Shown: one piece after another, positions 1,403-16,051 of the stretch
How positions within the stretch are numbered: the stretch's first letter is position 1
Layout: every line of letters starts with the position of its first letter
Assembly (NCBI GenBank): GCA_023663945.1
Contig: JAMPGL010000026.1
Span: forward strand, 1-53,193
Origin: Lachnospiraceae bacterium
GTDB taxonomy: Bacteria; Bacillota; Clostridia; Lachnospirales; Lachnospiraceae
Reading direction: 5' to 3'
DNA length: 53,193 bases
The notes under the pieces: model-generated
Database searches by the model: none
Told to the model about the DNA's origin: nothing
Seen by the model: the letters and a program-made list of their open reading frames with translations, nothing else
Position numbers and translations under genes: made by a program

Positions 1403-2566
1403 TCAGCAGGAATGTCCAAAAGAACATTTCAACATTTTTTCCATCTGTCCCACGTAAGAAAAATGCCTCTTCACTTTTTGATAGCCGTTTACAGCAATCT
1501 TTTCACGCAAATCCTCTCTTTTCAGGTAAAAATCCGCTTTATCCAAGGCATCGCCAAGGCTGTCATACAAGACAACGTCCTTCCCGTCTTCAAACCACTC
1601 CGCCAATTCCAGCTGATAATTTGACAAAAGCGCTCCGCGGCTTCCCATAATATCCAGCGCACGGAGTGGAATCCCCGAACGTATATCCTTCAACGTAATA
1701 TTTAAGTTCAAATTGCTATGCCGGAACACAAACGGCATTTCTTCATAATATTTAACCGGTCCGTAATTAAACGGCATCTCTTTGGACAGCGGCGCACTGC
1801 TGTAGCTGTAAAGATGCACGCAAAACTGCTGATTCAGTCTTTCCAAGAGCGTCTTTCGTTCCATCTGTGTAATTTTTGCCGCAATTGCATGAGAAAGCCC
1901 ACGCCTAGTCAGAGACACTTCTTTTTGTCCCATCCTTATATAAGATTGGTTTATGTCCTCCAAAAGCTCTTCCGGCAAAATCTCATCCACAAAATAATAC
2001 CCATAAGTCAGCATCTGCGCTTGCAAAATTCCCTGCAAATATCCCTTCTGATAATCATCTGCGGGCGCCAGCAGGGTATCATAGGGTGAGTCATATATTT
2101 TTCCCACAAAAGAAATCTGGCTGTAATACTTTTGCTGAGGCGGCCGCTTATACAGCAATGCGTCCAAACGTCCGGTATCCACCGCCAGCGGAAGGTGAAA
2201 TACATTTTGATAACCCTTCTTTTGATATTCCTCCGCTTCAAGACGGTCAAAAAGAAAAATCCGATTTGTCTCATAATGAAAATAGTTCTGAAGCCGTTCA
2301 TCCAGAGGGCTGTCGTAAGACCATGACAAATACAGGATCTTGCATCGGTCACACACTTTTGCCGCCAGCGGGAAAAAGTTCACGCTGAACACGCAGTCAT
2401 AAGAATCCATCCGCAGGCATTCCTCCATCCGTTCCTCAAAAAATAAGTCCTCGTATCGGTCTGGAAAATGGTAATACAATGTTCTGCAGTGATGTCCCAT
2501 CTTTTGAAATGCAGCGAGAATATCTTTATAGGTATAAGAGCCCGTATCAAAAAGCAGTATCTTCAT
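1403..2566 (-). CDS. CgeB/DUF3880-like glycosyltransferase, last gene of the flagellin modification operon
   Basis: A 387-aa protein resembling the CgeB-like / Glyco_trans_1_2 glycosyltransferases. It has an N-terminal Rossmann-like start (MKILLFDTGSY), an SYDSPL motif, a VSFVGK-like strand, and a C-terminal nucleotide-sugar-site-like stretch (SGIPLRALDIMGSRG, then NYQ). It aligns throughout with the C-terminal half of the 10196-12076 protein. The ATG at 2566 is preferred over an upstream in-frame start because it sits 5 nt behind GGAAGAG and one base after the stop of the preceding gene. Together with that gene it forms a two-gene version of the fused enzyme. Sugar donor and acceptor are unknown; flagellin is the likely acceptor from context. 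Confidence 0.8.
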   Translation of the reverse strand: MKILLFDTGSYTYKDILAAFQKMGHHCRTLYYHFPDRYEDLFFEERMEECLRMDSYDCVFSVNFFPLAAKVCDRCKILYLSWSYDSPLDERLQNYFHYETNRIFLFDRLEAEEYQKKGYQNVFHLPLAVDTGRLDALLYKRPPQQKYYSQISFVGKIYDSPYDTLLAPADDYQKGYLQGILQAQMLTYGYYFVDEILPEELLEDINQSYIRMGQKEVSLTRRGLSHAIAAKITQMERKTLLERLNQQFCVHLYSYSSAPLSKEMPFNYGPVKYYEEMPFVFRHSNLNLNITLKDIRSGIPLRALDIMGSRGALLSNYQLELAEWFEDGKDVVLYDSLGDALDKADFYLKREDLREKIAVNGYQKVKRHFSYVGQMEKMLKCSFGHSC

Positions 2567-2567
2567 T

Positions 2568-3278
2568 TCATCTCTTCCTGTCCCTAATCTGCTGGTAGGT
2601 TTTTCCAAGTGCATTTTTATATTTCTGTAAAAAAATCTGGCGGTACTGATCGTAATGAATCAAATTAGACAGTTGGTTGTCGTCGTGCAGGCACCATGGA
2701 TTTCTCTGCACGGGGACTGCAATCTTATATCCTCTTTTTAAAAATTCCATGCTTTGAAATGCATCATAAAAATCGAACCCCCGCAGCTCCTCCGTATTCC
2801 ACGGAAGGTCATATGCCGTTGCCATCAAAAGTCCGTCCACTACAGCCGCGCAGGCGTATCCATCTGAGGAAACAGAATACCGGTACTCCTTGTAATCCAT
2901 ATAGGATTCCGCATTCTTTCTCTGATAAATTGCTCCGCTCCTCTTTTGGTTCCACATAATCCCGTCTTCTGATACCCTCTCATAGCCGACCATTCCGACC
3001 ATGCCGATTTCAGGGTCAGTTTCAAAAATAGATAACAAATCCGTCAAGAAATTTTTATTTAAAATGAACACATCCTGATGCAGATAAATTTTGTATTTTG
3101 CATCGGACTGTGCCATTGCCTCCTGATACCCCTGCGTCATGGAAGCGGCATCCCCTATGGCAAGCAGGTCAATCATGTAACCGTCCGGAACCGCCAGATG
3201 CCTGATATAATGAACGCACTCTTCCAGCATAACCGGATTGTTGGTACATATGATAAAACAAAACTTATTATTGACCAT
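2568..3278 (-). CDS. GT2-like glycosyltransferase (Glyco_tranf_2_5 type)
   Basis: A 236-aa protein of the glycosyltransferase-2-like group. It begins NKFCFIICTNNP, has a central SDAKYKIYLHQDVFIL segment (HQD in place of the usual DxD), and a late GFDFYDAFQSMEF motif. The longer ORF starts at 3428, but ATG 3278 is chosen because a GGAGGAGG site lies upstream and the match to the fused paralogue begins just after it. The gene overlaps the upstream gene by 11 bp and is followed at once by 1403-2566, which indicates translational coupling. It is homologous to residues 1-230 of the 10196-12076 protein. Likely role: transfer of a sugar in flagellin modification (inference from location). Confidence 0.8.
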   Translation of the reverse strand: MVNNKFCFIICTNNPVMLEECVHYIRHLAVPDGYMIDLLAIGDAASMTQGYQEAMAQSDAKYKIYLHQDVFILNKNFLTDLLSIFETDPEIGMVGMVGYERVSEDGIMWNQKRSGAIYQRKNAESYMDYKEYRYSVSSDGYACAAVVDGLLMATAYDLPWNTEELRGFDFYDAFQSMEFLKRGYKIAVPVQRNPWCLHDDNQLSNLIHYDQYRQIFLQKYKNALGKTYQQIRDRKR

Positions 3279-4317
3279 GTCCGGATTCCTCCTCCGCCAT
3301 TTCTGCCATTTGCATAAAAAGAAGCCTTTCCTCCGCATTCCAGCTCTCACGAAGCAAATTTGACAAATACTGATAGTTCTCCCTATTGGAAGGAATCCGT
3401 TCATTCTGCAGCGCCGCATGCACCGCAAACGGAGATAAATCTGCCGATTTCAAAAACTGCTCCGCCTCATCCACCGACTCCCCAGACAGCCAAAATGCAA
3501 TGCGCCGAAGGGCAAACAGCATAACCAGATACTTCTCCAATAACTCCTCCTTCGACCGACAGCCCGAGCAAAAAAGCGGTTCCTGATATTTGGCTTCCAG
3601 CCGGATAATTGAAAGAATTTGCAGTATTCTGCGTGTTTCTCCCATATGCTTCCATGCAAGTTTTCCTTTGTCTGACTCTATATAAGGAATCAGCGTCAGC
3701 AAAGCAGATATGTCCTGCATGTCCAAGGCTTTATCCAGCACTTCGTCAATATGCCGGCAGGCTGCTTTTATCTCCGGGAGTTCTTCCTGCAACTGCCGAA
3801 AATGAAATTCCGCTACCTGCGACGGGGACAGGAAATACGGCAGACCGCATTTTCCAGCTGTCTTGTAAACTGCATAAGCCATTCTCCCTGCATTCCGCAG
3901 TACAGCCTCCTCATCAGAGTTGTCTTCCCATTCACTCAGCTCTTCCAAATATGGAATCTCCGGATATTTCTTTAATAAATATTCCTTATATTCCTTTCCC
4001 ACGCAGTAAAAAAACATGGATATGCTGAGAGGCTTTTGCAAAATAATCTCATTTTTAAGATTACGCTTTAGCAGAAAATGGACAAACTTGGCATTCCACA
4101 AATTGTAAGAAATCCCGCCAGTCAAAGTAGTAAGCTCAAAGCCTGACAAGTTTATGGTAATGACCAGATCCGCTCCCGAGGATTGAATCCGCGGCAGACT
4201 GCCGGGGGTAATCATATGCTGTTCAATGACGTTCCGGGGATTCGCTGACAGGATTTTGGAGAGTTCATGCAGGAGCAATGTATATGCATCTTCTTTTGCG
4301 ACTATTATAACTTTCAT
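3268..4317 (-). CDS. Protein of unknown function in the flagellin glycosylation operon
   Basis: A 349-aa protein with no family I can name. The N-terminal 110 residues look alpha/beta and resemble the N-termini of CgeB/DUF3880-type glycosyltransferases (MKVIIVAKEDAY, then GADLVITINLSGF). The rest is helical and Leu/Glu rich with a CSGC pair near residue 250. No transmembrane segment or signal peptide is visible. The gene lies 12 bp after the GT-methyltransferase fusion gene and overlaps the next gene by 11 bp, the same overlap that joins 12066-12737 to the fused glycosyltransferase. It may be a partner protein for the downstream transferase. The function is open. Confidence 0.7.
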   Translation of the reverse strand: MKVIIVAKEDAYTLLLHELSKILSANPRNVIEQHMITPGSLPRIQSSGADLVITINLSGFELTTLTGGISYNLWNAKFVHFLLKRNLKNEIILQKPLSISMFFYCVGKEYKEYLLKKYPEIPYLEELSEWEDNSDEEAVLRNAGRMAYAVYKTAGKCGLPYFLSPSQVAEFHFRQLQEELPEIKAACRHIDEVLDKALDMQDISALLTLIPYIESDKGKLAWKHMGETRRILQILSIIRLEAKYQEPLFCSGCRSKEELLEKYLVMLFALRRIAFWLSGESVDEAEQFLKSADLSPFAVHAALQNERIPSNRENYQYLSNLLRESWNAEERLLFMQMAEMAEEESGHGQ

Positions 4318-4329
4318 ATCATACTTATC

Positions 4330-5661
4330 CTAATCATTGCAGTCTGCTACTACCAAATATTGATAGGCAAGGAAAAAAAATGATTCTCCGCCTCCCAATC
4401 TCTTAAGATCCGCCACAAATTGTTTGTCCTCTTCCGACATCTTTCCTATTACCGTATAAGTACAACTACTTATCTGGTAGCCCGCCTGTAAAAACATACG
4501 CACAATTTCATAATAAGTAAAAAAATGAATATGTGTTCTATCAAGTAATCCCGTATCCTGATAAGTAAAATTACCACCAATAAGATCTTTCAATATTGTA
4601 TAGTGCATAAGATTAGGAATCGATGCAATGATTTTTCCCTGTGGTTTTAAAAAATACTTACAGTATTCAATAACTTTTTCAGGATTTCGTAAATGCTCCA
4701 GCACATCTCCAAAGATAATATAATCAAATTTCGTCTCGGAATATGGCAAGTTCATTTCTTCAATATTGCCAATAAGTACTTCGCAAAAAGCTGATGCCAC
4801 ATTAGCAGCGCTAGAGTTAATTTCTAATCCAAACAGTCTAGCTTTAGGGAAAGACCTCTTAATCTGCATTAAATTTGCTCCGCAGTCACAACCAACTTCC
4901 AATACGGTAAATTCCTCATCCCTGTTTTTATTAATTGCATTAACAAGATTCTCATTTGGAATATCATTGAAATAATTCATTCCCCATTTTGCTTTTAAGG
5001 AAATACGATCAACATCTCTTCCTAAAAATGCAGCGTAATAATCTACCTGCGAAACGACCTCATATACATATGAACTCTTTACAGAAACCATTTTCCACTT
5101 CTGGCACAAGCCTCGAAAAGACCAATCCCGCATTAAGGAATCAGGAAGAAGCAATTCTTCGTCTAATTCCTCCATTTCATCAATAAATTTTCGTGTCAAA
5201 AAAATATATTGCCAAGGTACTTTCAACGCTATTTCTGCTTCTATTGCATCCGCTTTTCCCCGTATCAGCTCTAATGCCTCTGAAATACCAACTTTCTGCG
5301 AACATATTGTTGCAAAATCTGTCGGAAAAGCCATCCCGATTTTATAATCACTGTCGCATGTCTCTTCAAGATAATGAAGACAGTCGCCCAAACAAATATA
5401 ATTATCATTAAGAATAAAAATATTCTCAGTAGTTGAAAATTCTTTCATAGCAGTATTTAAAATGCTTGCATAATTTTCCAACTTTTCTGCACAAATATAA
5501 TTATATTCAACTTGTGTTTCCAAGAAGCTCCTTATTCCTTTATCAAATCCCATATCAATAATAATTACATCTTCATCCGGCATTTGGGATATTGTTTTTA
5601 AGTATTTTAAATTTAATTTTAATATCTCTATATTTTCATAAGCAATCAAAAAAATTTTCAC
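4330..5661 (-). CDS. Glycosyltransferase-like / SAM methyltransferase fusion protein
   Basis: A 443-aa two-domain protein. Residues 1 to about 230 look like a GT2-type nucleotide-sugar fold (MKIFLIAYENIEIL, IFILNDNYICLGD), although the DxD is not obvious. Residues about 245-400 form a class I methyltransferase of the Methyltransf_23 kind: VLEVGCDCGAN is motif I, LFGLEI motif II, and FDYIIFGDVLEHLRNPEKV the post-II region. It starts with GTG at 5661 behind AAGGAT. It sits inside the leftward flagellin modification operon. It may add a sugar and methylate it, or methylate an existing glycan. The order of these steps is unknown. Confidence 0.78.
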   Translation of the reverse strand: MKIFLIAYENIEILKLNLKYLKTISQMPDEDVIIIDMGFDKGIRSFLETQVEYNYICAEKLENYASILNTAMKEFSTTENIFILNDNYICLGDCLHYLEETCDSDYKIGMAFPTDFATICSQKVGISEALELIRGKADAIEAEIALKVPWQYIFLTRKFIDEMEELDEELLLPDSLMRDWSFRGLCQKWKMVSVKSSYVYEVVSQVDYYAAFLGRDVDRISLKAKWGMNYFNDIPNENLVNAINKNRDEEFTVLEVGCDCGANLMQIKRSFPKARLFGLEINSSAANVASAFCEVLIGNIEEMNLPYSETKFDYIIFGDVLEHLRNPEKVIEYCKYFLKPQGKIIASIPNLMHYTILKDLIGGNFTYQDTGLLDRTHIHFFTYYEIVRMFLQAGYQISSCTYTVIGKMSEEDKQFVADLKRLGGGESFFFLAYQYLVVADCND

Positions 5662-5702
5662 TGTAATATCCTTCTCACTCCATCCTCTTAAAACTATAAT
5701 AT

Positions 5703-6830
5703 CTACTTCTTTTCACCAAATTCCTCCACTATTACCTGTACCACTCTTTGCATTTTTTCTTCTGTCAGTCCAAGTCCGCTTGGAATATAAAAACCCTTTT
5801 TAGCAAGTTCTTCTGATACGGGGCATTTTACATCTTTAAACAAACCCATTTTCAAAAATACCGGCTGTTTATGAACTGGATAAAAAAACGGTCTTGTGCC
5901 TATTCCCCTTTTTTGAAGTATTTCCATTGCCTGCTTTCCATCCATCATTGTATTTCTCAACACAAGCCCATATATCCAGTAGATATTATCACAATATTCT
6001 GTTTTTTCCAAAGGTTGGATAAAACTTTCGGATACTGCTTCAAGATTTTCCCTATAGAATTTCCCTATTTCTCTTTTGTGTATAATTGCGTTATTAATAT
6101 TTTCCAATTGCGCACACCCAAGTGCCGCCTGCATATTTGTCATTCTAAAATTGCTTCCCAGTTCCTCATGAACAAATCTCCGTTCTGGCAAAAAACATAA
6201 ATTCCTAATTCTCCTGCACCGTTCGGCAAATTCCTCATCGTCTGTCAGCACCATTCCACCTTCCCCACATGCTATAATCTTATTCGGATAAAAGCTAAAA
6301 ATACTCACATCACCAAAACCACCACAGCGTTTTCCCCTATACGTCTGCCCATGCGCTTGTGCAGCATCTTCTATAATCTTCAACCCATATTTCCTAGCTA
6401 ATTTCAATACAGGTTCCACGTCCACTGTAATCCCATAAATATGCACCAGCATAATTGCTGAAGTTTTATCTGTTATTCTTTTTTCAATTTGGTCAACATC
6501 TATATTCCAAGTATCTTCTCGACAATCGACTACTACAGGGATAAGCCCTGCTTTTGTGATTGCCTGTGCGCAAGAAATAATTGTAAAAGCAGGCATAATT
6601 ACCTCACTTTTAAGTGGAAGATTCAATGCTTGAACCGCAGTTTCCAAAGCCGCAGTTCCGCTACTGACAGCAATGCCATATTTTCTCCCCACATAATCTG
6701 CCATCTCCCTTTCAAATCTCTTGACAAATGGACCTTCCGAAGATATCCATCCACTATCAATGCACTCACACAAATACTTTTTTTCATTTCCATTTAATAA
6801 AGGCTCATTTATTGGTATATATTTATCCAT
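5703..6830 (-). CDS. DegT/DnrJ/EryC1/StrS aminotransferase, perosamine-synthase-like
   Basis: A 375-aa PLP-dependent sugar aminotransferase. It has SSGTAALE (phosphate binding, about 56-63), DAAQAHGQTY (Asp155 contacts the PLP ring nitrogen) and SFYPNK with the Schiff-base Lys at about 184. The sequence closely resembles GDP-4-keto-6-deoxymannose 4-aminotransferases (perosamine synthases), including ISSEGPFVKRFE and NFRMTNMQAALG. It would convert a nucleotide-linked 4-keto-6-deoxy sugar to the 4-amino sugar using glutamate. ATG 6830 is chosen over an upstream start because AGGAGG lies just before it. A methyltransferase and cupin lie directly upstream. No nucleotidyltransferase or dehydratase is present in this window. 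Confidence 0.88.
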   Translation of the reverse strand: MDKYIPINEPLLNGNEKKYLCECIDSGWISSEGPFVKRFEREMADYVGRKYGIAVSSGTAALETAVQALNLPLKSEVIMPAFTIISCAQAITKAGLIPVVVDCREDTWNIDVDQIEKRITDKTSAIMLVHIYGITVDVEPVLKLARKYGLKIIEDAAQAHGQTYRGKRCGGFGDVSIFSFYPNKIIACGEGGMVLTDDEEFAERCRRIRNLCFLPERRFVHEELGSNFRMTNMQAALGCAQLENINNAIIHKREIGKFYRENLEAVSESFIQPLEKTEYCDNIYWIYGLVLRNTMMDGKQAMEILQKRGIGTRPFFYPVHKQPVFLKMGLFKDVKCPVSEELAKKGFYIPSGLGLTEEKMQRVVQVIVEEFGEKK

Positions 6831-6853
6831 ATTTCCTCCTGTATCCTGTCCCT

Positions 6854-7624
6854 TCAAATTCTTTTACTTTTTTTCGCAACACAAATAGCTGTCCATGAGT
6901 TAAAATTAGTTTTCTGTAATGTATTGCTGTCCAAGCACTCTAAAAGTTCAAATCCTGCTTGTTGCAAATAAATCTTTAATTCTGGGATAAAAAAATAACG
7001 CATTTTATGCACTTCCTCAACCAAACGTGTATATCCCGTTTCATTTTCTATTACAAATATGCAATAATTCACATCCACTACATTTTCTTCTATATGTACA
7101 GCCGGAACAGCAACACGATGCAAAGTATATTTTTCATCGTGTACTGTCTTAAAGCGAACTGTCGGCTTATCGCTTAATACTCCTGGTCCATACCACAAAT
7201 CAAAAATAAATATTCCATTTTCCCGAATAGCATTTGCAGCTGTCAAAAAGGCATTAATAATATCTTCATTTGAATTTTGGTAACTCATAACATGAAACAG
7301 AGCTGTAACCACATCATATGACTTTGATGTAACATAATTTCGTATATCGGCTACTTCATATTCAATCATAAGCCCTTTTTGCTTATTATTTCTATTGGCA
7401 ATGTCAATCATCTGAGGGCTTAAGTCCACTCCCGTCACACAATATCCCATCTTCGCAAATTCAACATCATGTCTTCCTGTTCCACATCCTAAATTTAATA
7501 TACAATTTTGTGGAAAATCACCCCATTTTTTTAATAGCATTTCAATCATTTCAGTTTCTTTTTTATAGTCCTTGTCCTTATAAAAAGCATTATAATAATA
7601 TGCATAGTCTTGAAACTGTTCCAT
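6854..7624 (-). CDS. Class I SAM-dependent methyltransferase, amino-sugar N-methyltransferase-like
   Basis: A 256-aa methyltransferase of near standard length. Motif I is LNLGCGTGRHDVEFAK, motif II VTGVDLSPQMID, followed by ADIRNY and YDVVTALFHVMSY. This pattern resembles the small N,N-dimethyltransferases that act on nucleotide-linked amino sugars (DesVI/TylM1 type). ATG 7624 has AGGAGGGG nine bases upstream. It is 3 bp after the cupin gene and 23 bp before the aminotransferase, so the three are very likely one module. The adjacent aminotransferase makes N-methylation of its amino-sugar product the simplest idea, but O-methylation is not excluded. Confidence 0.82.
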   Translation of the reverse strand: MEQFQDYAYYYNAFYKDKDYKKETEMIEMLLKKWGDFPQNCILNLGCGTGRHDVEFAKMGYCVTGVDLSPQMIDIANRNNKQKGLMIEYEVADIRNYVTSKSYDVVTALFHVMSYQNSNEDIINAFLTAANAIRENGIFIFDLWYGPGVLSDKPTVRFKTVHDEKYTLHRVAVPAVHIEENVVDVNYCIFVIENETGYTRLVEEVHKMRYFFIPELKIYLQQAGFELLECLDSNTLQKTNFNSWTAICVAKKSKRI

Positions 7625-7627
7625 GTT

Positions 7628-8044
7628 TTACCCCTCCTGTCCTACTGGGTAAAATCTGGTCTTGTCAGCCTCTCCTGCGTATGGACCTTGTTTAATCTCA
7701 ATCATTATGGTTTCTTCCAGTATCTCAAATCCATGACCCCCCCCAGCTAATAAAATAACATCGCCTTCCTGAATCACTACATTTTTTTGATACTTGCAAT
7801 TACTGTCATAAAAGTTAACTCTAATCTTTCCCTTTTTAATTACTAATGTTTCCTGCGTATAGTGAACAGTCCTTTTTACCTCATTATGAAAATGAGGGAG
7901 AATATTATATCCTTTAGGATGGTGCATGTATGCCATCTGCTGTGAAAAATCCCCAGGTGTCACAAATTCGATTCCCGCTTTATCAAAATTACTCCTTATA
8001 ATAATTGCAACCATTTCTTCTTTGCAGTAGATTTTTTCTATCAT
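7628..8044 (-). CDS. Cupin-domain protein of surface polysaccharide / glycan loci
   Basis: A 138-aa single-domain cupin with the two conserved beta-barrel motifs: HFHNEVKRTVHYTQETLVIKKG and the later GDVILLAGGGHGFEIL. Similar small proteins are often found beside DegT aminotransferases in O-antigen and glycan loci, but their reaction is usually not established. A sugar isomerase or epimerase role, as in FdtA-like or RmlC-like cupins, is possible. It lies between a glycosyltransferase and a methyltransferase with gaps of 20 and 3 bp. No membrane segment or signal is visible. Confidence 0.75.
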   Translation of the reverse strand: MIEKIYCKEEMVAIIIRSNFDKAGIEFVTPGDFSQQMAYMHHPKGYNILPHFHNEVKRTVHYTQETLVIKKGKIRVNFYDSNCKYQKNVVIQEGDVILLAGGGHGFEILEETIMIEIKQGPYAGEADKTRFYPVGQEG

Positions 8045-8064
8045 TTCTCATTTTCTCCCTTATT

Positions 8065-9060
8065 TTATATTGTGTTATCTTCAATCAGACAGGAAAAAAT
8101 CCCGTCTTGATATTTAAGTTGATTTTGATACAGCTCATGTAAGGATTTCCTTTTTAAAAGATATTCCCATATCTCTATATGCTTTTTTGCATAATTTTCC
8201 CATGTCCAGTCGGCTACAGAGACAATCTTTTTTTCTCTATCATATTGTAAGTCATACAAAACATTAGTGAACTGGTCAATCGTACAACAACTATGATCTA
8301 TTCCATTTTCTACATCTAAATGAAATCCTTGAGGAGTAACGATTGTTTTCACCCCTGCCGACAATGCATCTAAGTACCCCATGGATCCCTCGTCAAATCC
8401 AAAAAACATATAAAAATCTAAGGAAGGAATTAGTTCATGATACTGAACATAGTCAAAATCGTCATAATAATCCACTTCGAATCCCTTATCTCTCATTTCC
8501 GCTACTATATCCTGCCATCCTGCACCCATGATTTTAAATTTAAAGTATAACGGATTAACTCCCTCTAATATATCAAGTAATGCTGTAGTACGTTTTCTCA
8601 AATCATAAGAATCATAGCATCTATGTGTTATGCCAATAATATATTTTTTAGGTTGCATATTTCCGTCATGAGCAGGATTGATATAACACACTTTTTCTCT
8701 CGGGATTCCCATTTGTACTAAATGCAGCATAGTGTCTTTTGACATACAAATTGCCATTTTAGCCGTTTTTAGCTGGTGTCTGATTAATTCCACTTTATGT
8801 AATGTATCTACATGTGTTATCATTAGTGTATCGTGATAATCTTGCAGCGGTTGATAAGGATGATAGGGGATATGGTGGTTGATATCTGCTTCAGGGTTAA
8901 TTCCGCCTATGTCTGCATAAATACCTAAGTAATTCAAGTGTTCCACCAGGCGTTGAGCAAATTTAGTTAATATCCAGCCTCCCCCCTCATAATTGATAAC
9001 CCTGACTCTCAGCCTGTCATTTACTTTCTTTTTTCCATAAATGTAATCATAGCTTTCCAT
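8065..9060 (-). CDS. Glycosyltransferase, GT4-like (GT-B fold)
   Basis: A 331-aa protein with features of retaining GT-B transferases. There is a glycine-rich N-terminal loop (RVINYEGGGWILTKFA), a middle strand (KKYIIGITHRCY), and a C-terminal donor-site-like stretch (FYMFFGFDEGSMGYLDALSAGVKTIVTPQGFH) with acidic residues in the position of the EX7E motif. ATG 9060 is chosen because AAGGGG lies 10 nt upstream; an ATG at 9105 overlaps the upstream gene and has a poorly spaced site. It belongs to the leftward flagellin modification operon. Acceptor and donor are unknown. Confidence 0.78.
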   Translation of the reverse strand: MESYDYIYGKKKVNDRLRVRVINYEGGGWILTKFAQRLVEHLNYLGIYADIGGINPEADINHHIPYHPYQPLQDYHDTLMITHVDTLHKVELIRHQLKTAKMAICMSKDTMLHLVQMGIPREKVCYINPAHDGNMQPKKYIIGITHRCYDSYDLRKRTTALLDILEGVNPLYFKFKIMGAGWQDIVAEMRDKGFEVDYYDDFDYVQYHELIPSLDFYMFFGFDEGSMGYLDALSAGVKTIVTPQGFHLDVENGIDHSCCTIDQFTNVLYDLQYDREKKIVSVADWTWENYAKKHIEIWEYLLKRKSLHELYQNQLKYQDGIFSCLIEDNTI

Positions 9061-9086
9061 AATCCATGTTCCCCTTAGCTGTCTGC

Positions 9087-10154
9087 TCAATAAGGCTTTT
9101 CCCATTCCCTGCTTTTGCGGAGAAAATCATTTTTATACGTATATAAATCTGATAAGTCATAATGAAAATTATTTTTCCAACATGCATACCCAAAACTGAG
9201 CTGGTCTCTCCTGCTCTTATTTTTAACCTCGTTCCACCAGCTCAGCATTACATTCTGCAAAATATGATCATGATGCAAACGCACAAGGCAAGCGCCATCA
9301 ATCAATCCATTATTTGCAGGATACCCTTCTTGGGAATATCCGCTCATTTGTTTTTCAATTATTTCTGGAACATCTTTTCCTATTGAAGCACACACTTCGG
9401 CTTCCTCATATGCGCAATCCCTAACAAAGTGCGGAAAGCAAAGCATAGCGCTTCCTCTGCTGTATGTTTCCATATATTTCCTCAAATCACCTATAATCTG
9501 TATTTTCCCATCGATATAAATGGAAAAATCATATTCCGTTAGATATTCATGACACAAGATTTTATACTTTCTGGAAAGTCGCGCCATATCCAGTTTTTCG
9601 TTGTTATCAATGTGTCGAAAAGACCATACATTCGAAGTTAAATTTTGATTATCTGTAAAGCAGATATAATCAAAGTTCTTATCAATATATTCCGGTTCGC
9701 AAAGAGTATCATATCCTCCTGTAACTACCGTATAAATAACCCCTTTCCCATGAAATGCCAGATTAAGAGGGCACGAATGCTGGTAATATTTTTCATATAC
9801 ACTTTTTGCATATTTCTGAAATTGCCGAACTAATGACTCATCAAATTCTTCTTCCATTTTTTTCTTTTTGTCTTTAAGAAAATTTTCTTCTTTTGCTATA
9901 ATGTCTAAATCACTTACCATCTCCTCCAATAATATAATTAATCGAGCTTCATCTTTTCCTTTAACTGCCATATTGATACTTCTATCATAAACATCTACAT
10001 ATGCACTTAATTTTTGTATGTAATTGCTTGTCCATGCTTTATATTCTGCATATAGAAGTGCCGTAACATCTTCTATCGGAAAATCTTCAATTGACAAGTT
10101 TCCTTTTGCAACACAGTTTTTAAGGCTGCTTAAAATATTTGCACTTCTATCCAC
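9087..10154 (-). CDS. DUF616-like (TOD1/MUCI70) glycosyltransferase-domain protein
   Basis: A 355-aa protein. Residues 1-130 are helical and charged, with a lysine/glutamate-rich stretch (KDKKKKMEEEF). Residues about 135-350 match the DUF616 glycosyltransferase-like domain: VIYTVVTGGYDTLCEP, FDYICFTDN, DFSIYIDGKIQI (D-x-D-like metal site) and a late PANNGLIDGACLVR. The start is GTG at 10154, eight bases after AAGGGGG. It lies 41 bp after the fused glycosyltransferase and 26 bp before the GT4-like gene. The N-terminal helices could mediate interaction with a partner transferase or with flagellin; this is speculation. Confidence 0.75.
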   Translation of the reverse strand: MDRSANILSSLKNCVAKGNLSIEDFPIEDVTALLYAEYKAWTSNYIQKLSAYVDVYDRSINMAVKGKDEARLIILLEEMVSDLDIIAKEENFLKDKKKKMEEEFDESLVRQFQKYAKSVYEKYYQHSCPLNLAFHGKGVIYTVVTGGYDTLCEPEYIDKNFDYICFTDNQNLTSNVWSFRHIDNNEKLDMARLSRKYKILCHEYLTEYDFSIYIDGKIQIIGDLRKYMETYSRGSAMLCFPHFVRDCAYEEAEVCASIGKDVPEIIEKQMSGYSQEGYPANNGLIDGACLVRLHHDHILQNVMLSWWNEVKNKSRRDQLSFGYACWKNNFHYDLSDLYTYKNDFLRKSREWEKPY

Positions 10155-10195
10155 AATTTGTTCCCCCTTTGCAATATCTTGTCATTATTAATATT

Positions 10196-12076
10196 TTACA
10201 AAACCGCCACTGCATCAGCCTTATTGAAAATATAATCCAAAACTTCCTCAATTCTTCCTTTTAAAGAATGCTTTTCCCTCACTTTCTTATATCCGTTAAT
10301 TGCAATCCTGATCCTTTGATCCTCGTGCTTCAAATAATATGCTATCTTATCTTCCAATTCCTGTAGATTATGATAGACCTCCAAATCCTTTCCAATTTCA
10401 AAATACTCTTCAAGCTCCGGCTGATAATTGGTCAGGCAGAAACCGCCCACCGCCATAATATCCCAAACTCGTAAAGGTATTCCGCTCTCAATGCTTCTGG
10501 ATGTAATGTTCAAGTTTATCCTGCTCAGATAAAACACCTTAGGCATTTCATTCCCATATTCGAGCCACGGTCGAACTTTCATCTTCTTCAAAATTTTTCT
10601 TACTGAATCATCCGCATATAACACAACTGGAAATCGCTTTTGTAAAGTTTCCAGAATTTTAATCCTTTCAATCTCATTACACTTTCTTACTAACCGCATA
10701 CTTTCGCAATAATAACGCTTATCTATGTTCCAAGCTTTCCAAGTATCTTCCGGCTGTTTCGATGCCATATAATCAATCAACTCTTCCGAAGCCTTATCAA
10801 AAATGGTTGTATTTTTATCCCATACACAGTCCATTTCCTCAATAATTTTCTCAGCTTCTTCTAAATACCTTTTTCCTTCTTCATCAAATGTCTCTTCAAA
10901 GCCACGGTTATTATATAAACGCCCTACAAAAGATACTTCGCTGGAATACTTTTTCTCGTCCCTTTTTCCGATATGTACCGCTCCAAAATTGTCGATTTCC
11001 GGTGCCAGAGGGAGGTAAAATAAGTGTTTTAATCCAAGACCTTTTAAACGCTCATATTGTTTCCTGTCAAATACGCTGATATAATTGACTTCATTCAGAG
11101 CTTCTTTACTGTATAACCCCATAAGCGGGGAGTCATAAACCCATGAGTAATAAGGTATCTGAAAATCTTGGCAGGCATTGGACACTCCCTGACTGAAATC
11201 ATAAGTTACTACTAAATCATAGTGCCCTTCTTCCAAAAGCTCTTCCACAATCCCATAATCTTTAATGTCCGCACTGCCGCCATTTTCCAAAGTAATCTTA
11301 ACCATCGGTATTGTTACATTATGTCCCAATTGTGTCAGGACAGAGGGAATCCCGATAGATTGTATCTGCCTGCTGTGTAAAAATAAAATTCTCTTTCTAT
11401 CTTTCTGTGAATCAGCAATTTCCGGATATTCCCGCAATAAAATTTCCCTGTTTTCATTATAATGCCAAAAAGCCGGCGCCCCGCAGGCATGAATCACCCA
11501 ATTGTTCTTTTGAGCCGGAACCGCTATCTTATATCCTGCCCTGCGAAATTCCATACACTGTGAAATATCATAAAAATCAAAACCGCGGAAAACATCTTCC
11601 CTCCACGGAATATCATACTGGGTTGCCATCAAGAACCCGTCAATTGCTTCTACCTCTTTATGACCGCGTTTCAAATGTGTGATATTGTCAAATCCACCCT
11701 TTATAAGTTCTTCCAACTTATAAAAATTACCGCATCGCTGTTCATGCCACATAACGCCATCTTTTGACAGTTTTTCTGCTCCCACGATTCCTGCCATACC
11801 AATCTTGGAATCCTTTTTAAAAAGTTTTAACAGATAATCCAAAAAGTATGGTTCCACAACAAAAGTATCCTGATGCAGATAAATTTTATATTTTGCATCG
11901 GATGCCTGCATAGCTTCGTTATAGCCGGATGTCATAGATGAGGCATCTGTCACAGTAATCACATCTGTCTGGTATCCCTCCGGAACATGCAGAAGACTTA
12001 AATACATCATGCATTCCTGAAGCTGCTGCTCATCATTGGTACATATAATGAAACAAATTTTATATTTATCGGTCAT
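10196..12076 (-). CDS. Bifunctional GT2-like + CgeB-like glycosyltransferase
   Basis: A 626-aa two-domain enzyme. Residues 1 to about 230 are a Glyco_tranf_2_5-type domain (KICFIICTND, SDAKYKIYLHQDTF, GFDFYDISQCMEF). Residues about 245-620 are a CgeB/DUF3880-type domain (KRILFLHSRQ, SWVYDSPLMG, VSFVGRLYNNRG, SGIPLRVWDIMAVGGF). The two halves are homologous to the separate neighbours 2568-3278 and 1403-2566 in the same order. ATG 12076 is preferred to 12100 because AAGGTGG lies six bases upstream; it overlaps the preceding gene by 11 bp. A protein able to attach two sugars in sequence, or to act processively on flagellin, is plausible. Confidence 0.85.
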   Translation of the reverse strand: MTDKYKICFIICTNDEQQLQECMMYLSLLHVPEGYQTDVITVTDASSMTSGYNEAMQASDAKYKIYLHQDTFVVEPYFLDYLLKLFKKDSKIGMAGIVGAEKLSKDGVMWHEQRCGNFYKLEELIKGGFDNITHLKRGHKEVEAIDGFLMATQYDIPWREDVFRGFDFYDISQCMEFRRAGYKIAVPAQKNNWVIHACGAPAFWHYNENREILLREYPEIADSQKDRKRILFLHSRQIQSIGIPSVLTQLGHNVTIPMVKITLENGGSADIKDYGIVEELLEEGHYDLVVTYDFSQGVSNACQDFQIPYYSWVYDSPLMGLYSKEALNEVNYISVFDRKQYERLKGLGLKHLFYLPLAPEIDNFGAVHIGKRDEKKYSSEVSFVGRLYNNRGFEETFDEEGKRYLEEAEKIIEEMDCVWDKNTTIFDKASEELIDYMASKQPEDTWKAWNIDKRYYCESMRLVRKCNEIERIKILETLQKRFPVVLYADDSVRKILKKMKVRPWLEYGNEMPKVFYLSRINLNITSRSIESGIPLRVWDIMAVGGFCLTNYQPELEEYFEIGKDLEVYHNLQELEDKIAYYLKHEDQRIRIAINGYKKVREKHSLKGRIEEVLDYIFNKADAVAVL

Positions 12077-12737
12077 TTTTTGCCACCTTACGCAATTCAT
12101 TTGTCAATTTCTCAACTTGTGAAGAAGGTTTTTCTATCTTTTCAATAGCTTCCAACGCCCTTTCAAATTGATTTCCTTCCAGCCAAATATCCGCTTCCTC
12201 CAATAATAATTTTTCCTGTCCCGGAAATGCCTCATTTGCATACTGTATAAGCAAAAGAGCATTTATCGAATCTGCTTTCTGTCTAAGGCATCGCGCTATA
12301 TATATAACATTTTCTTCTCTCTTTTTTGTTTCTTTTACAATAATCGTTCCGATTGCCATTCCGCTTATCCGGTCTTCTATCAGCCATTCCAGCGCCTGCT
12401 CAATGTAGTCATTCGGAACCGCATTTTCTATCCGAAGCCCGCAATGCTTTATTCTCTGATATTTCTGTTCCACATCATCAAGAGAAGAAACTTTATAAAA
12501 AATATCTGCTTTAATTCCTAAATCGGGCAATCTTTTCTTTTCCCTCAGCCACAAATTTAAGAAGCAGTCCAGCATAATCAGCTGATTCTCTTTTCCTTTT
12601 AATTTGGAATAAGCCTTATCCTGCGCCAGATACAACATTAGATCCTTTATCTGCGTAAATCCTGTTCCCTTTTCCAGTCTTTGATTAATTTCCTTTTTCA
12701 ATTGCAATAATTCTTTGTACTGTTGCTTCAGCTTCAT
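12066..12737 (-). CDS. Helical protein of unknown function, first gene after flagellin
   Basis: A 223-aa protein I do not recognise. It is mostly helical and charged, with an N-terminal coiled-coil-like segment (KQQYKELLQLKKEINQRLE) and a C-terminal TPR-like stretch (EEADIWLEGNQFERALEAIEKIEK). No signal peptide or transmembrane helix is visible. Its start (ATG 12737, site GAGGG) is immediately beyond the flagellin terminator, and it overlaps the fused glycosyltransferase by 11 bp. It could be a scaffold or chaperone for the glycosyltransferase, or a flagellin-binding factor. This is inferred from position only. Confidence 0.68.
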   Translation of the reverse strand: MKLKQQYKELLQLKKEINQRLEKGTGFTQIKDLMLYLAQDKAYSKLKGKENQLIMLDCFLNLWLREKKRLPDLGIKADIFYKVSSLDDVEQKYQRIKHCGLRIENAVPNDYIEQALEWLIEDRISGMAIGTIIVKETKKREENVIYIARCLRQKADSINALLLIQYANEAFPGQEKLLLEEADIWLEGNQFERALEAIEKIEKPSSQVEKLTNELRKVAKNDR

Positions 12738-12751
12738 AATTCCCTCGAAAG

Positions 12752-12783
12752 AAAAAAGGGCTGACGAAAGCCAACCCCTTTTC
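12752..12783 (-). terminator. Rho-independent terminator after flagellin
   Basis: On the minus strand an eight-pair stem (GGGTTGGC / GTCAGCCC, with G-U pairs) with a TTTC loop is followed by six T. It lies just after the flagellin stop and ends right before the ribosome binding site of the next leftward gene, so readthrough would supply the modification operon at a lower level than flagellin. Confidence 0.8.
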
Positions 12784-12806
12784 TATTGGTAGTTTTACAT
12801 TCCTGA

Positions 12807-13637
12807 TTAACCAAGTAAGGACAATACGCCCTGATTAGCCTGATTAGCCTGTGCAAGCATAGCCTGACCTGCCTGAGCAAGAATCTGGCTGTTGGAGTAC
12901 TTAACCATTTCAGTTGCCATATCTGTATCGCGGATCTGGCTCTCTGCACTGGTAGTGTTCTCAACAACGTTATCCAGATTATTAATGGTGTGCTCAAGCC
13001 TGTTCTGGATGGCACCCAAATCAGAACGCTGTTTGCTGATTGCAGTCATAGCCGCTTTAATGGTGCTGATTGCATTCTGCGCATTACTCTGGCAGCTAAC
13101 GCCTGAACTACTTAACCCATTAACGGTAATCCCTTCTGCATCCATTGACTTAATTGATACAGAAATTCTGTTTCCAGAAGTTCCTTCGGATCCAACCTGC
13201 AAATCAATACCGCCACTCCAACTACCATCAAGAAGCATTTTCTCATTAAAGGTCGTAGTCTGTGCTACACGATCAATTTCCTTGATCAAAGCATCAACTT
13301 CGCTCTGGATATAGCTCTGGTCTTCTGACTGGTTGGTTCCGTTTGCAGCCTTAACTGCAAGCTCGTTCATTCTCTGAAGCATATCATGTACTTCATTAAG
13401 TGCGCCTTCTGCTGTCTGCACTGCGCTGATACCATCCTGTGCGTTCAGGGAAGCCTGTGTAAGACCTCTGATCTGACGTCTCATCTTTTCGGAAATAGCA
13501 AGACCTGCTGCATCGTCTGCCGCGCGGTTTACCTTATAACCGGAAGATAACTTCTCTGTCTGCTTAGCCTGTGTCTTGGTTGTCAGTCCTAACATTCTGT
13601 TAGAGTTGATTGCTGTTAAATTGTGTTGTACTACCAT
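12807..13637 (-). CDS. fliC: Flagellin, short Clostridia type
   Basis: A 276-aa flagellin. The N-terminal D0/D1 helices (VVQHNLTAINSNRMLG, EKLSSGYKVNRAADDAAGLAISEKMR) and C-terminal D1/D0 (QIRDTDMATEMVKYSN, ending NQGVLSLLG) are intact. The middle domain is only about 50 residues, Ser/Gly rich, and carries a cysteine near 182, unusual for flagellin. The TLR5-facing helix reads LQRMNELAVKAAN (87-99), with Asn where the Salmonella motif has Arg90. ATG 13637 follows GGAGG; an upstream in-frame start would lie in the leader. The short Ser/Thr region and downstream glycosyltransferases suggest O-glycosylation. Expression is probably tied to csrA and the invertible promoter upstream. Confidence 0.97.
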   Translation of the reverse strand: MVVQHNLTAINSNRMLGLTTKTQAKQTEKLSSGYKVNRAADDAAGLAISEKMRRQIRGLTQASLNAQDGISAVQTAEGALNEVHDMLQRMNELAVKAANGTNQSEDQSYIQSEVDALIKEIDRVAQTTTFNEKMLLDGSWSGGIDLQVGSEGTSGNRISVSIKSMDAEGITVNGLSSSGVSCQSNAQNAISTIKAAMTAISKQRSDLGAIQNRLEHTINNLDNVVENTTSAESQIRDTDMATEMVKYSNSQILAQAGQAMLAQANQANQGVLSLLG

Positions 13638-13644
13638 AGTATTT

Positions 13645-13680
13645 ACCTCCATGTGTTTGTTTTCATGCAAATCCGTTTGC
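13645..13680 (-). promoter_or_regulatory. Putative CsrA binding sites in the flagellin leader
   Basis: On the minus strand the flagellin Shine-Dalgarno is embedded in ACACATGGAGGT (13645-13656), close to the CsrA consensus ACARGGAUGU, and a second GGA motif (AAACGGAT) lies about 20 nt upstream (13671-13678). Two GGA sites with one over the SD is the arrangement known for B. subtilis hag. Binding by the adjacent CsrA-like protein is inferred. Confidence 0.55.
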
Positions 13681-13705
13681 ACGCGTTTTTAGTTTTATAA
13701 TAAAC

Positions 13706-13764: not shown

Positions 13765-14037
13765 TTAGCGGGTTTCCAAGTTTCCCTTTGTAATAATGAC
13801 TTTGGGTTTCTTCTTGTACTTCTCCGGATGTTCTTCTTCCCTGTAATATTTAGGAAGCTTTTTTCTTTCCTCTAAATCAGTAATCTGCTTCTCCAAGACG
13901 CTGCTTCTGACGATATTGACCTCCTTGGGCGCATCGATCATGATTCTCATGTGCTTTCCGGTTCCTCCCAAAAAGACAATCTTTATATCATCTCCAAGCA
14001 TCAAATATTCTTCTGTTGCCACTGACATTCTTAACAT
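13765..14037 (-). CDS. csrA: CsrA-like carbon storage / flagellin translation regulator
   Basis: A 90-aa protein. The core (EEYLMLGDDIKIVFLGGTGKHMRIMIDAPKEVNIVR) is clearly CsrA. It differs from the family in two ways. The usual LTRK-type residues 4-7, part of the RNA-binding face, are MSVA here. It also has a lysine-rich C-terminal extension of about 38 residues. The later conserved Arg of the VxR region is kept. In Firmicutes CsrA represses flagellin translation and is antagonised by FliW; no fliW gene is seen in this window. ATG 14037 lies behind AAGGAGG. The gene is directly upstream of flagellin. Its own leader has several GGA triplets, so autoregulation is possible. Confidence 0.9.
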   Translation of the reverse strand: MLRMSVATEEYLMLGDDIKIVFLGGTGKHMRIMIDAPKEVNIVRSSVLEKQITDLEERKKLPKYYREEEHPEKYKKKPKVIITKGNLETR

Positions 14038-14085: not shown

Positions 14086-14109
14086 GTAACATAATGTATA
14101 TTGTGTTAC
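14086..14109. repeat. Recombination site A (palindromic, left end of invertible segment)
   Basis: The left arm GTAACATAAT and right arm ATTGTGTTAC flank a central GTAT on the plus strand. It is near-identical to site B at 14887-14910, whose centre reads ATAC, so the two asymmetric centres are in opposite orientation. It lies 49 bp upstream of csrA. Confidence 0.85.
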
Positions 14110-14204
14110 CTTCTACTGCCTATTGTTCCGAGGTCGGAGCTATTTCAGGCATTCCACAGTAATATGCCTTTCAAACCTGCCAATGGCAATTTCACGCATC
14201 CGGT

Positions 14205-14798
14205 TTAAATTTCAATATTGCGAAAAATCTCATCTCTGTCGTCCTGCTCAATTCCCAGATAACGCACAGTGACTTGAAAAGAAGAATGGTTATAGATATT
14301 CATAAGCAGTGCAGGCTTAATTCCCTGCTGCCATGCATAATATCCGAACGTTTTCCGCAGGGAATGGCAGCTTACCACTCCTTCCAGCTTACATGCCGTT
14401 GCCGCCTTTTTGATAATGCGGAAGGCTTGTACTCTCGAAATGGAACCGCCCTCTTTTCTATTGTTTTCAAAAAGAAATATCTCCTCCGTGACGCTCTTTT
14501 TCTGACTGGCCAGATACCTCTTGTATTCCATGAGAGCATTCTGTATATTTTGGTTTATCAGAATCATAGAATTTTTATCTGTCTTTTGCTCTGTGATGCA
14601 TAAATGTTCTTTGCACCTTTTTAAACCAAAATCATAGACATCCCCCCATCTCAAACTTAAGATGTCGGAAATGCGAAGCGCCGTATTCAATCCCATTACC
14701 AGTAGCAGATAGTTCCTCTGGTTAGGGCATGTGCTTCGATAATACTCCTTTAAATGGCGTAAATCCGCCTCTTTGCGTATTGGTTGTGCTGTATTCAT
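14205..14798 (-). CDS. Small tyrosine recombinase (probable DNA invertase) inside the invertible segment
   Basis: A 197-aa catalytic-domain-type tyrosine recombinase, similar in size to FimB/FimE-like invertases. All active-site residues can be placed: Arg42 (ALRISDILSLRW), Lys72, His145 and Arg148 (HSLRKTFG), His171 (NHSS) and nucleophile Tyr180 (VRYLGI). It lacks the separate N-terminal core-binding domain of XerC/D. ATG 14798 has an AGGAGG site. It lies between the two inverted sites, so it would flip with the segment. In this orientation it reads toward csrA, and readthrough could give basal csrA-flagellin transcription. A weak promoter (TTGTTA-N17-TGTAAA) overlaps the opposing sigma-28 promoter. 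Confidence 0.93.
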   Translation of the reverse strand: MNTAQPIRKEADLRHLKEYYRSTCPNQRNYLLLVMGLNTALRISDILSLRWGDVYDFGLKRCKEHLCITEQKTDKNSMILINQNIQNALMEYKRYLASQKKSVTEEIFLFENNRKEGGSISRVQAFRIIKKAATACKLEGVVSCHSLRKTFGYYAWQQGIKPALLMNIYNHSSFQVTVRYLGIEQDDRDEIFRNIEI

Positions 14799-14838
14799 AG
14801 CTTCCTCCTAAAAATTTTTATTTTTTTTATTTCAGCCC

Positions 14839-14865
14839 TAAAGTTTTTTCTTTACATGCCGATAT
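14839..14865 (+). promoter_or_regulatory. Sigma-28 (FliA/SigD) flagellar promoter, pointing away from flagellin
   Basis: The -35 TAAAGTTT (14839-14846), an 11-bp spacer and the -10 GCCGATAT (14858-14865) match the enterobacterial sigma-28 consensus at 15 of 16 positions, and the B. subtilis SigD pattern equally well. It is 22 bp inside site B and fires rightward, across site B toward 15131. Its only logical flagellar target in the window, csrA-flagellin, lies on the other side and strand. Confidence 0.88.
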
Positions 14866-14880
14866 AAAAAATGTAACAAA

Positions 14881-14916
14881 GAAGAGGTAACACAATATAC
14901 ATTGTGTTACCTCTTC
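14881..14916. repeat. Recombination site B (palindromic, right end of invertible segment)
   Basis: The arms GAAGAGGTAACACAAT and ATTGTGTTACCTCTTC flank a central ATAC, giving 16-bp perfect arms. The inner 24 bp (14887-14910) match site A except at one arm base and with the centre reversed. The longer symmetry than at site A could mean it is the better recombinase-binding site or that it also forms an RNA hairpin. Confidence 0.85.
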
Positions 14917-15130
14917 TTGCTATGCAGAATAAACTCAATTGCAAGCCGCACTCACTCTCTCAGATCTCTTTGCAAATCCTTTCACAGCTGCTTATGTGCA
15001 AAACCTGCAATTCCCCTCATTTTTCATATTTTTATAAAATATCTAAATTCTTTCATACGTTTTATACCTATAGTTCTATATAATTAGAACAAAAGGGTTA
15101 TTACACCCGATAATAAAAGGAGGCAGCATC

Positions 15131-16051
15131 ATGAACAGCTTAGAACTACCTATAAACGACTACTTAAACTATTGCCAATTCCAAAAACGCTTGGACGAGA
15201 AAACTCTAAAAGCATACCGCATTGACCTGATGCAGTTCAGCACTAAATTCCCACAGGCAGAAATTGGAACCATTTCCTCCGGCTCACTGGAAAATTATAT
15301 TGCCGAGCTTCATCAAAAATATAAACCCAAAACCGTAAAGCGAAAAATCGCATCCTTAAAGGCAATCTTCCATTATTGGGAATACCGTGAAATCCTTGAC
15401 CGAAATCCTTTTAACAAAATACAGATAAAGTTTCGGGAACCGGTTATTCTTCCTAAGACAATCCCGCTTCATACTGTTGAGGCTTTCCTAATGACAATGT
15501 ACCGCCAGCATTCCTGCGCCAAGACCGATTATCAGAAGAAAAGCTCCCTTAGGGATATTGCTGTTATCGAACTTCTTTTTGCCACCGGCATTCGGATTTC
15601 GGAATTGTGCTCTTTAAAACCTGCCGACGTAAATCTATACGACAAAACGATTTTGATTTATGGAAAAGGTTCCAAAGAAAGACGCGTTCAGCTTGGAAAC
15701 GATGACGTGATTTCTATTTTGAAAGAATATAAGAAATCCTATGAAAAGCAGATACAAGACTGCGGTCACTTTTTTGCCAATCAGTCCGGCAGACCCCTGT
15801 CTGACCAGTCTATCCGCAGAATGATCAACAAGTACACTGACCTTGCCGCCATCGAACAGCATATTACGCCCCATATGTTCCGCCACACCTTTGCCACAAG
15901 CCTGCTGGAAGCTGATGTTGACATCCGCTATATTCAGGAAATGCTTGGACACAGCTCTATCAATATTACCGAAATCTATACCCATGTTGCTATGTCCAAA
16001 CAAAGGGATATTCTTGTTTCAAAGCATCCCAGGAAAGATTTTCATATTTAA
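15131..16051 (+). CDS. XerC/XerD-like tyrosine recombinase next to the flagellin switch
   Basis: A 306-aa full-length recombinase. The N-terminal SAM-like core-binding domain spans about residues 5-90 and the catalytic domain about 110-300. Active-site residues are Arg155 (ATGIRISELCSL), a Lys in GKGSKERRV (179 or 182), His248 and Arg251 (HMFRHTFAT), His274 (GHSS) and Tyr283 (EIYTHV). ATG 15131 follows AAAGGAGG. The 214 bp upstream has an AT-rich possible -10 (TATAAT near 15079) but no obvious terminator, so the sigma-28 promoter at 14839 could drive it in the present orientation. It may be the inversion enzyme, a partner of the small recombinase, or act on other sites. Confidence 0.92.
   Translation: MNSLELPINDYLNYCQFQKRLDEKTLKAYRIDLMQFSTKFPQAEIGTISSGSLENYIAELHQKYKPKTVKRKIASLKAIFHYWEYREILDRNPFNKIQIKFREPVILPKTIPLHTVEAFLMTMYRQHSCAKTDYQKKSSLRDIAVIELLFATGIRISELCSLKPADVNLYDKTILIYGKGSKERRVQLGNDDVISILKEYKKSYEKQIQDCGHFFANQSGRPLSDQSIRRMINKYTDLAAIEQHITPHMFRHTFATSLLEADVDIRYIQEMLGHSSINITEIYTHVAMSKQRDILVSKHPRKDFHI

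Follow-up and report, generated by a model that had tools for sequence, protein, structure and literature searches.

Whether a Lachnospiraceae bacterium switches a flagellin gene on and off by inverting its promoter is the question raised by a short segment in a stretch of 53,193 nucleotides. This stretch, hereafter the window, is the whole of contig C26 in an assembly of 3.74 Mb, 107 contigs and 94% completeness. The initial annotation had proposed an invertible sigma-28 promoter at this place. The 825-bp segment (14086..14910, both sites included) was delimited by repeat search and pattern scan, and its inversion is indicated by comparison with related loci. It is very likely a Hin-like promoter-inversion switch flipped by the tyrosine recombinase that it encodes, a reading supported by loci of relatives in the ON orientation and by a pair of mutually inverted loci in one genome.

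The segment is delimited by two recombination sites, the left one on the csrA side (14086..14109, +, GTAACATAATGTATATTGTGTTAC), with no T-tract on its outside, and the right one on the far side (14887..14910, +, GTAACACAATATACATTGTGTTAC). The inverted repeats extend over 26 nt (14086-14111 and 14885-14910) with a complementarity of 96% and a spacing of 773 nt. Each site is near-palindromic, following the pattern GTAACAYAAT-RTAY-ATTGTGTTAC, and the asymmetric centres (GTAT and ATAC) are inverted relative to each other, just as had been annotated. Allowing up to three mismatches, the pattern was detected at two places only in the 3.74-Mb genome, namely the two ends of the segment, and the reversed control pattern was not detected. 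Inverted sites bounding a promoter-bearing segment, the arrangement by which invertons are recognised, were found here and in 87 loci of relatives.

The motif scan revealed a sigma-28-type promoter motif, TAAAGTTT-N11-GCCGATAT, at 14839..14865 (+), with the full sequence TAAAGTTTTTTCTTTACATGCCGATAT. It is the single zero-mismatch occurrence of TAAA-N15-GCCGATAT in the genome. One-mismatch versions were found at 45 further places and the reversed control gave 28 matches in total, so that a one-mismatch motif by itself means little. Against the longer sigma-28 consensus, TAAAGTTT-N11-GCCGATAA, the window motif scored 15 of 16, the value claimed initially; the consensus TAAA-N15-CCGATAT is quoted in the literature (PMC3720852). 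A FliA-type sigma factor is encoded in the genome (270.6 bits, cut-off 189.6). The motif points away from csrA and flagellin, which corresponds to the OFF state. When the mirrored position was recomputed, the promoter came to lie at 14131-14157 (-) with 94 nt between the end of the -10 element and the csrA start, in agreement with the leader of about 90 nt announced beforehand.

An ORF of 197 aa (14205..14798, -) is located between the sites. Its sole Pfam match is Phage_integrase (65.4 bits, cut-off 27.1), and R42, K72, H145, R148, H171 and Y180 are invariant among 13 aligned recombinases, window copy included; these are presumably the catalytic residues of tyrosine recombinases. By homology and alignment, the predicted invertase is assigned to the tyrosine recombinases, as in the initial annotation, with its presumed catalytic residues in place. 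A XerC/D-like recombinase of 306 aa is encoded on the far side (15131..16051, +), where it is faced by the promoter in OFF. Its scores remain under the model cut-offs (240.7 of 335.15 bits for XerC, 235.8 of 329.6 bits for XerD). It was considered as the invertase and rejected: no further close copy was found in 22 loci, taken with some 1.5 kb of flanking DNA as far as the contigs reached, and the remaining matches in these loci (19-27% identity) fall on the small recombinase itself. The XerC/D-like gene is probably a bystander. Beyond it, the region 16184-17224 matches PF04754 (putative transposase, YhgA-like) and displays a repeated RIAGLAEGE near the C-terminus.

On the other side of the segment, csrA (13765..14037, -, 90 aa) is the predicted first gene of the switched unit, followed by the gene of the flagellin MVVQHNLTAINS... 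(12807..13637, -, 276 aa), its predicted structural gene; both were identified by Pfam. Folding revealed a terminator-like hairpin after flagellin (12750..12784, -, -19.0 kcal/mol), which is absent from the list of the terminator scan. The genes further downstream (1403..12737, -) comprise glycosyltransferases, methyltransferases, a DegT aminotransferase and four ORFs without Pfam match, and probably serve flagellin glycosylation. The initial annotation had the promoter feeding the entire cluster. The csrA and flagellin genes were confirmed at their positions; it is not claimed here that the glycosylation genes are switched too, since the terminator-like hairpin separates them from flagellin.

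The same genome contains a diverged second recombinase (51% identity) on contig C10, with its own sites, csrA and flagellin. The C10 inverted repeats (27 nt, TGCAAC..., 93% complementary) are unlike the C26 sites in sequence, and the C10 sigma-28 motif has one mismatch and is directed away from csrA-flagellin. The OFF state, correctly annotated for the window, is thus displayed by both loci of this assembly. Flagellin_N matches were obtained for four genes (on C26, C10, C36 and C79). Only those on C26 and C10 combine a MVVQHN/MIVQHN start with adjacent csrA and recombinase, and the two csrA genes of the genome are both within these switch loci. The flagellin of C10 is 544 aa long and that of C26 276 aa; at their two ends the proteins are 83% and 71% identical.

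Relatives were collected from a genus group (37 genomes, recombinase E<=1e-30) and a family spread (396 genomes, E<=1e-50), the window genome being included in both. The recombinase was detected in 15 of the 37 and in 29 of the 396 genomes. Named genomes were sampled as the best 80 of 567 confirmed relatives, with a profile built from 13 copies which all have csrA and inverted repeats. Among these best 80 of 567, 41 titles read Lachnospiraceae and 11 Roseburia, and 68 are metagenome-assembled genomes; the isolates include Roseburia porci, R. inulinivorans, R. faecis, Butyribacter intestini, Velocimicrobium porci, Petralouisia muris and GAM79. The pool, which includes the best 80 of 567, excludes 21 locus ids (other recombinases, loci of other families, stretches that other loci overlapped or replaced), and merging of 12 near-identical places reduced it from 141 to 129 distinct recombinase places. 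An outward csrA adjoins 101 of them, a share biased upward because csrA-linked copies had supplied the search profile; the other 28 have no adjacent csrA. Flanking inverted repeats were found in 90 of the 101 csrA-linked copies, and 87 additionally reached a sigma-28 score of 10.25 or more out of 13; these 87 are referred to as complete loci. No inverted repeat was detected in 11 of the 101, and a promoter over threshold was absent in 3 more. A flagellin N-terminus was detected behind csrA in 79 of the 87. Two places without csrA found adjacent, L041 and L026, display a 12-point sigma-28 motif, L041 with inverted sites and L026 cut by a contig end; it is possible that they switch other targets.

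Shuffled controls ruled out chance repeats or a chance promoter as the origin of this anatomy. An inverted repeat score of at least 14.5 was reached in 90 of 101 loci versus 1 of 101 shuffled flank pairs. For the sigma-28 match, the threshold of 10.25 was reached in 87 of 90 loci versus 81 of 1800 shuffles, and a threshold of 11.75 in 60 of 90 versus none of 1800. Only two layouts occur among the complete loci. In layout A (21 loci, window type), the promoter is at the 5' end of the recombinase gene and reads against it, and in layout B (66 loci, C10 type) it is at the 3' end and reads with it. The two layouts correspond to two recombinase clades (support 0.885) with no locus misplaced.

The initial annotation had called for a search of related genomes for the opposite orientation, and it was found: 83 complete loci are OFF and 4 are ON (L031, L033, L055 and L150). 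Both orientations occur within each layout, with 64 OFF and 2 ON of the C10 type and 19 OFF and 2 ON of the window type. The promoter call was at least 1 point above the next candidate in 85 of 87 loci and narrow in two, L064 and L061 (R. inulinivorans). Restricting the count to the 60 strong promoters gave 56 OFF and 4 ON. The clearest case is a pair of loci in one genome (G414), L149 being OFF and L150 ON. Their segments are 94% identical over 1001 bp in plus orientation and their flanks align in minus (csrA side, 142 bp at 97%; far side, 62 bp at 94%), with breakpoints falling within the sites of about 30 bp. Being separate loci rather than alternative states of a single locus, the two reflect inversion since duplication and not flipping in culture. 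The same inversion pattern was observed at 69-81% identity between L033 (ON) and L064 (OFF) in one bin from sheep rectum. Judged from these comparisons, both orientations occur in nature, between loci and species, the window locus itself being seen in one orientation.

With OFF so predominant (83 of 87), the ON state may occur rarely or only under certain conditions. Since most named records are metagenome bins, the bias could conceivably stem from selection against flagellin in the gut, but the scorable isolates (L039, Roseburia porci; L044, Lachnospiraceae bacterium GAM79; L053, Butyribacter intestini; L061 and L074) are OFF as well. Such a shared functional orientation would also be expected of a formerly invertible element that is now locked with its promoter pointing away, flagellin being silent or read from elsewhere. 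Consistent with this are the 14 of 101 csrA-linked copies without detectable repeats or over-threshold promoter, and the decay of the ON locus L031, in which the csrA match is truncated and no flagellin was found apart from a remnant seen by eye. In addition, a sigma-70-like site within the segment (14189-14161, -, 9/12) faces csrA in the present orientation and could leak into csrA in OFF; such sites numbered 4, versus 6.1 in shuffles. However, the recombinase match is free of stops in each of the 87 complete loci, and ON loci are present in both recombinase clades, with 4 state changes on the tree. The 94% identity of L149 and L150 points to recent flipping, and the site cores, identical within loci yet of many versions between them, argue against fossils too. 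A locked element is therefore considered very unlikely, and ongoing flipping of the promoter segment in living populations is the expectation.

These cores were defined by aligning the site pairs of 86 of the 87 complete loci about their symmetry centre (L108 was excluded, as a contig end is too near). Mismatches between the two sites of a locus amounted to 1/570 at distances |d|<=3 from the centre, 123/688 at |d| 4-7 and 3/344 at |d| 8-9, where the conserved arms lie, and the similarity is gone beyond about 16 positions from the centre. Picking the sites by similarity lowered all mismatch rates, not selectively that of the core, and the informative point is how much the core differs from positions 4-7. 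The 7-bp core is asymmetric in 86 of 86 loci, with 56 distinct versions. Strand exchange by tyrosine recombinases needs a matching asymmetric core to give inversion rather than deletion. A core that is identical within a locus, asymmetric and variable between loci fits inversion by such an enzyme.

The two flanks of the segment differ clearly. In the 14 nt outside the site, the T count averages 8.4 on the far side and 2.9 on the csrA side, with no locus reversed (n=86, Wilcoxon p ~7e-16), and runs of at least four T were found in 63 loci on the far side versus 4 on the csrA side. In the four ON loci, too, it is the far side that is T-rich, which agrees with a flank that does not move along with the segment. 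The end of the -10 element is separated from the site that the promoter traverses by a median of 18 nt (range 1-68, n=87). In the window, the right site is embedded in an extended stem of 18 bp (14879..14918), terminator-like in repeat search and fold. The OFF transcript would form this hairpin with -26.5 kcal/mol, and the ON transcript a hairpin of 10 bp and -11.1 kcal/mol at the csrA-side site; in the C10 locus the two are nearly alike (OFF -14.1, ON -12.3 kcal/mol). The far-side T-tract of the window is weak (TTCTTGCTATGC), and the terminator scan calls the hairpin at 14879-14918 on the minus strand only. As a T-tract abuts the far-side site hairpin across the loci, the OFF transcript probably ends there.

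Such a stop would be at odds with a two-way switch, in which the promoter would serve either csrA-flagellin or a far-side gene, here the XerC/D-like recombinase. The outward promoter of the window does face this co-stranded ORF, which starts 220 nt past the site, and that of C10 faces an ORF of 328 aa, which by eye we take to be phosphate acetyltransferase-like. Yet among 78 loci with sufficient flank, the first far-side ORF (90 aa or longer) shares the promoter's direction in 32 and opposes it in 46, and by eye no common family emerged from the initial 60 residues of these ORFs. On account of these directions and the lack of a shared family, the idea that the promoter alternately serves a conserved gene on the far side was rejected, and a two-way switch is very unlikely.

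The varying far-side neighbours would equally suit a recombinase that is the passenger of a phage or mobile element, with repeats serving integration or excision instead of inversion. Relatives of the enzyme are indeed encoded on 64 IMG/VR contigs (L160-L223). These viral relatives share 27-48% identity, and no csrA or flagellin was found in the 64 loci by tblastn on the fetched DNA, so that they belong to another setting; a phage element was rejected on these grounds. The sites at the switch loci are moreover inverted and not direct, and 101 of 129 pooled places adjoin an outward csrA, even if this share is biased upward. A passenger is an extremely unlikely reading of the segment. The small tyrosine recombinases of L160-L223 are perhaps part of phage switches.

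For the self-encoded promoter-inversion switch, the following course of events is proposed. The recombinase of the segment would bind the palindromic arms of both sites, and strand exchange across the asymmetric core of about 7 bp would flip the segment. In ON, the internal sigma-28 promoter would read over the csrA-side site into csrA and flagellin, the lack of a T-tract at this site letting the transcript through. In OFF, the promoter would read outward and probably be halted at the hairpin formed by the far-side site. CsrA co-produced with flagellin may then attach to the leader of the flagellin mRNA and reduce its translation.

This last step is suggested by the flagellin leader itself. 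It carries a hairpin, TGCAAA[CGGA]TTTGCA (13666..13681, -), predicted as CsrA site 1, and ACATGGAGG (13646..13654, -), a Shine-Dalgarno sequence overlapping the predicted CsrA site 2. All 81 flagellin leaders compared have ANGGA at the Shine-Dalgarno, and 53 of them a perfect stem (5 bp or longer) just above it whose loop contains GGA, the stem sequences being different. The pattern fits control of flagellin translation by CsrA, as in Bacillus. In the window genome, a co-directional csrA could act on both flagellin leaders. FliW, the usual antagonist of CsrA, was not found in this assembly and is present in 30 of the 37 genus-group genomes; this may reflect a loss or, at 94% completeness, an assembly gap, and makes the CsrA circuit uncertain here.

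Promoter inversion as such is classical, and known systems share one part or another of the locus. In Salmonella, hin lies inside the H segment and the fljBA promoter is of the sigma-28 type. Within the H segment, this promoter is flanked by hixL and hixR (PMC3535392), and Hin is a serine recombinase (PMC11868660). The H segment is the nearest layout, with a flagellin promoter (here by motif) and the recombinase both within the inverting segment. Unlike Hin, the window enzyme is of the tyrosine type, with Phage_integrase as sole Pfam match and no assignment to the serine recombinases, a difference of class that indicates an apparently separate origin from the Salmonella flagellar switch. The ON unit begins with csrA, in contrast to fljBA with its flagellin and repressor of the other flagellin, and many separate loci with their own cores and a far-side hairpin with T-tract have no counterpart in Salmonella. 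The initial annotation knew of no described system with this arrangement: the layout as such is not new, being that of the H segment, from which the tyrosine enzyme, the leading csrA and the multi-locus cassette set it apart. No description of a csrA-flagellin inversion cassette was found in the open-access literature, to which the search was confined.

The nearest enzyme and habitat are those of Clostridioides difficile, in which flagellar phase variation occurs by inversion through the tyrosine recombinase RecV (PMC7446863). The switch is upstream of the flgB operon, its OFF state is Rho-dependent, and RecV flips other switches too (PMC7446863). Both cases thus combine a tyrosine recombinase and flagellar inversion in a Gram-positive gut bacterium, whereas here the target is csrA-flagellin instead of the flgB operon, the moving part is the promoter of flagellin itself and every locus encodes a recombinase of its own. 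With about 200 aa, the enzyme also resembles FimB and FimE as a small stand-alone tyrosine invertase, although these are encoded outside the fimS switch. Two NCBIfam models of tyrosine-type DNA invertases, presumably FimE and FimB, gave 39.6 bits (cut-off 222) and 37.4 bits (cut-off 221), below both cut-offs. In E. coli, fimS carries an invertible promoter that drives the structural gene beside it (PMC7446863), its target being fimbriae and not flagellin as here. The hag leader of B. subtilis has two CsrA sites, and the GGA hairpin and the GGA at the Shine-Dalgarno of the flagellin mRNA are alike. PMC3720852 cites the inhibition of flagellin by CsrA in B. subtilis; the difference is that here csrA heads the switched flagellin unit, and that this unit is under DNA inversion.

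The main surprise is the breadth of the system. Genome G414 has seven recombinase copies (L149, L150, L151 at G414:C9:117000-134600, L152 and L153), three of them within about 10 kb. Six copies have csrA and flagellin, five being OFF and one ON, and the seventh is without orientation call. The six flagellins are distinct (482-723 aa, 50-87% identical) and the centres of the six scored loci all differ. Locus-specific cores would keep several loci of one genome apart. A flagellin repertoire of the family, with several loci per genome, each flipped singly by its own invertase at its own core and CsrA keeping the filament type near-exclusive, is a tentative idea that we consider rather doubtful.

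Flagellins of gut Lachnospiraceae are prominent immune antigens. If the switch operates as proposed, a flagellin gene in a metagenome would not equal flagellin production, and the state could be read from the orientation of the reads. Flagellin amounts were variable in R. inulinivorans cultures, and sigma-28 promoters were assigned in Roseburia and Eubacterium (PMC3720852). The main text of that article contains no 'recombinase', 'integrase' or 'phase varia...', and its sole 'invert...' concerns plots. A heritable on/off switch, if true, could explain such variable flagellin expression. The site cores, the two part orders and the far-side hairpins constitute a natural series on how switches diverge.

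In two loci of the human gut species R. faecis (L084 and L101), the recombinase adjoins csrA with no inverted repeats detected, and these may be switches that have become locked or have decayed. At L107, one csrA-recombinase locus is flanked on both sides by a tandem flagellin array, seen as five N-terminal matches in the same direction.
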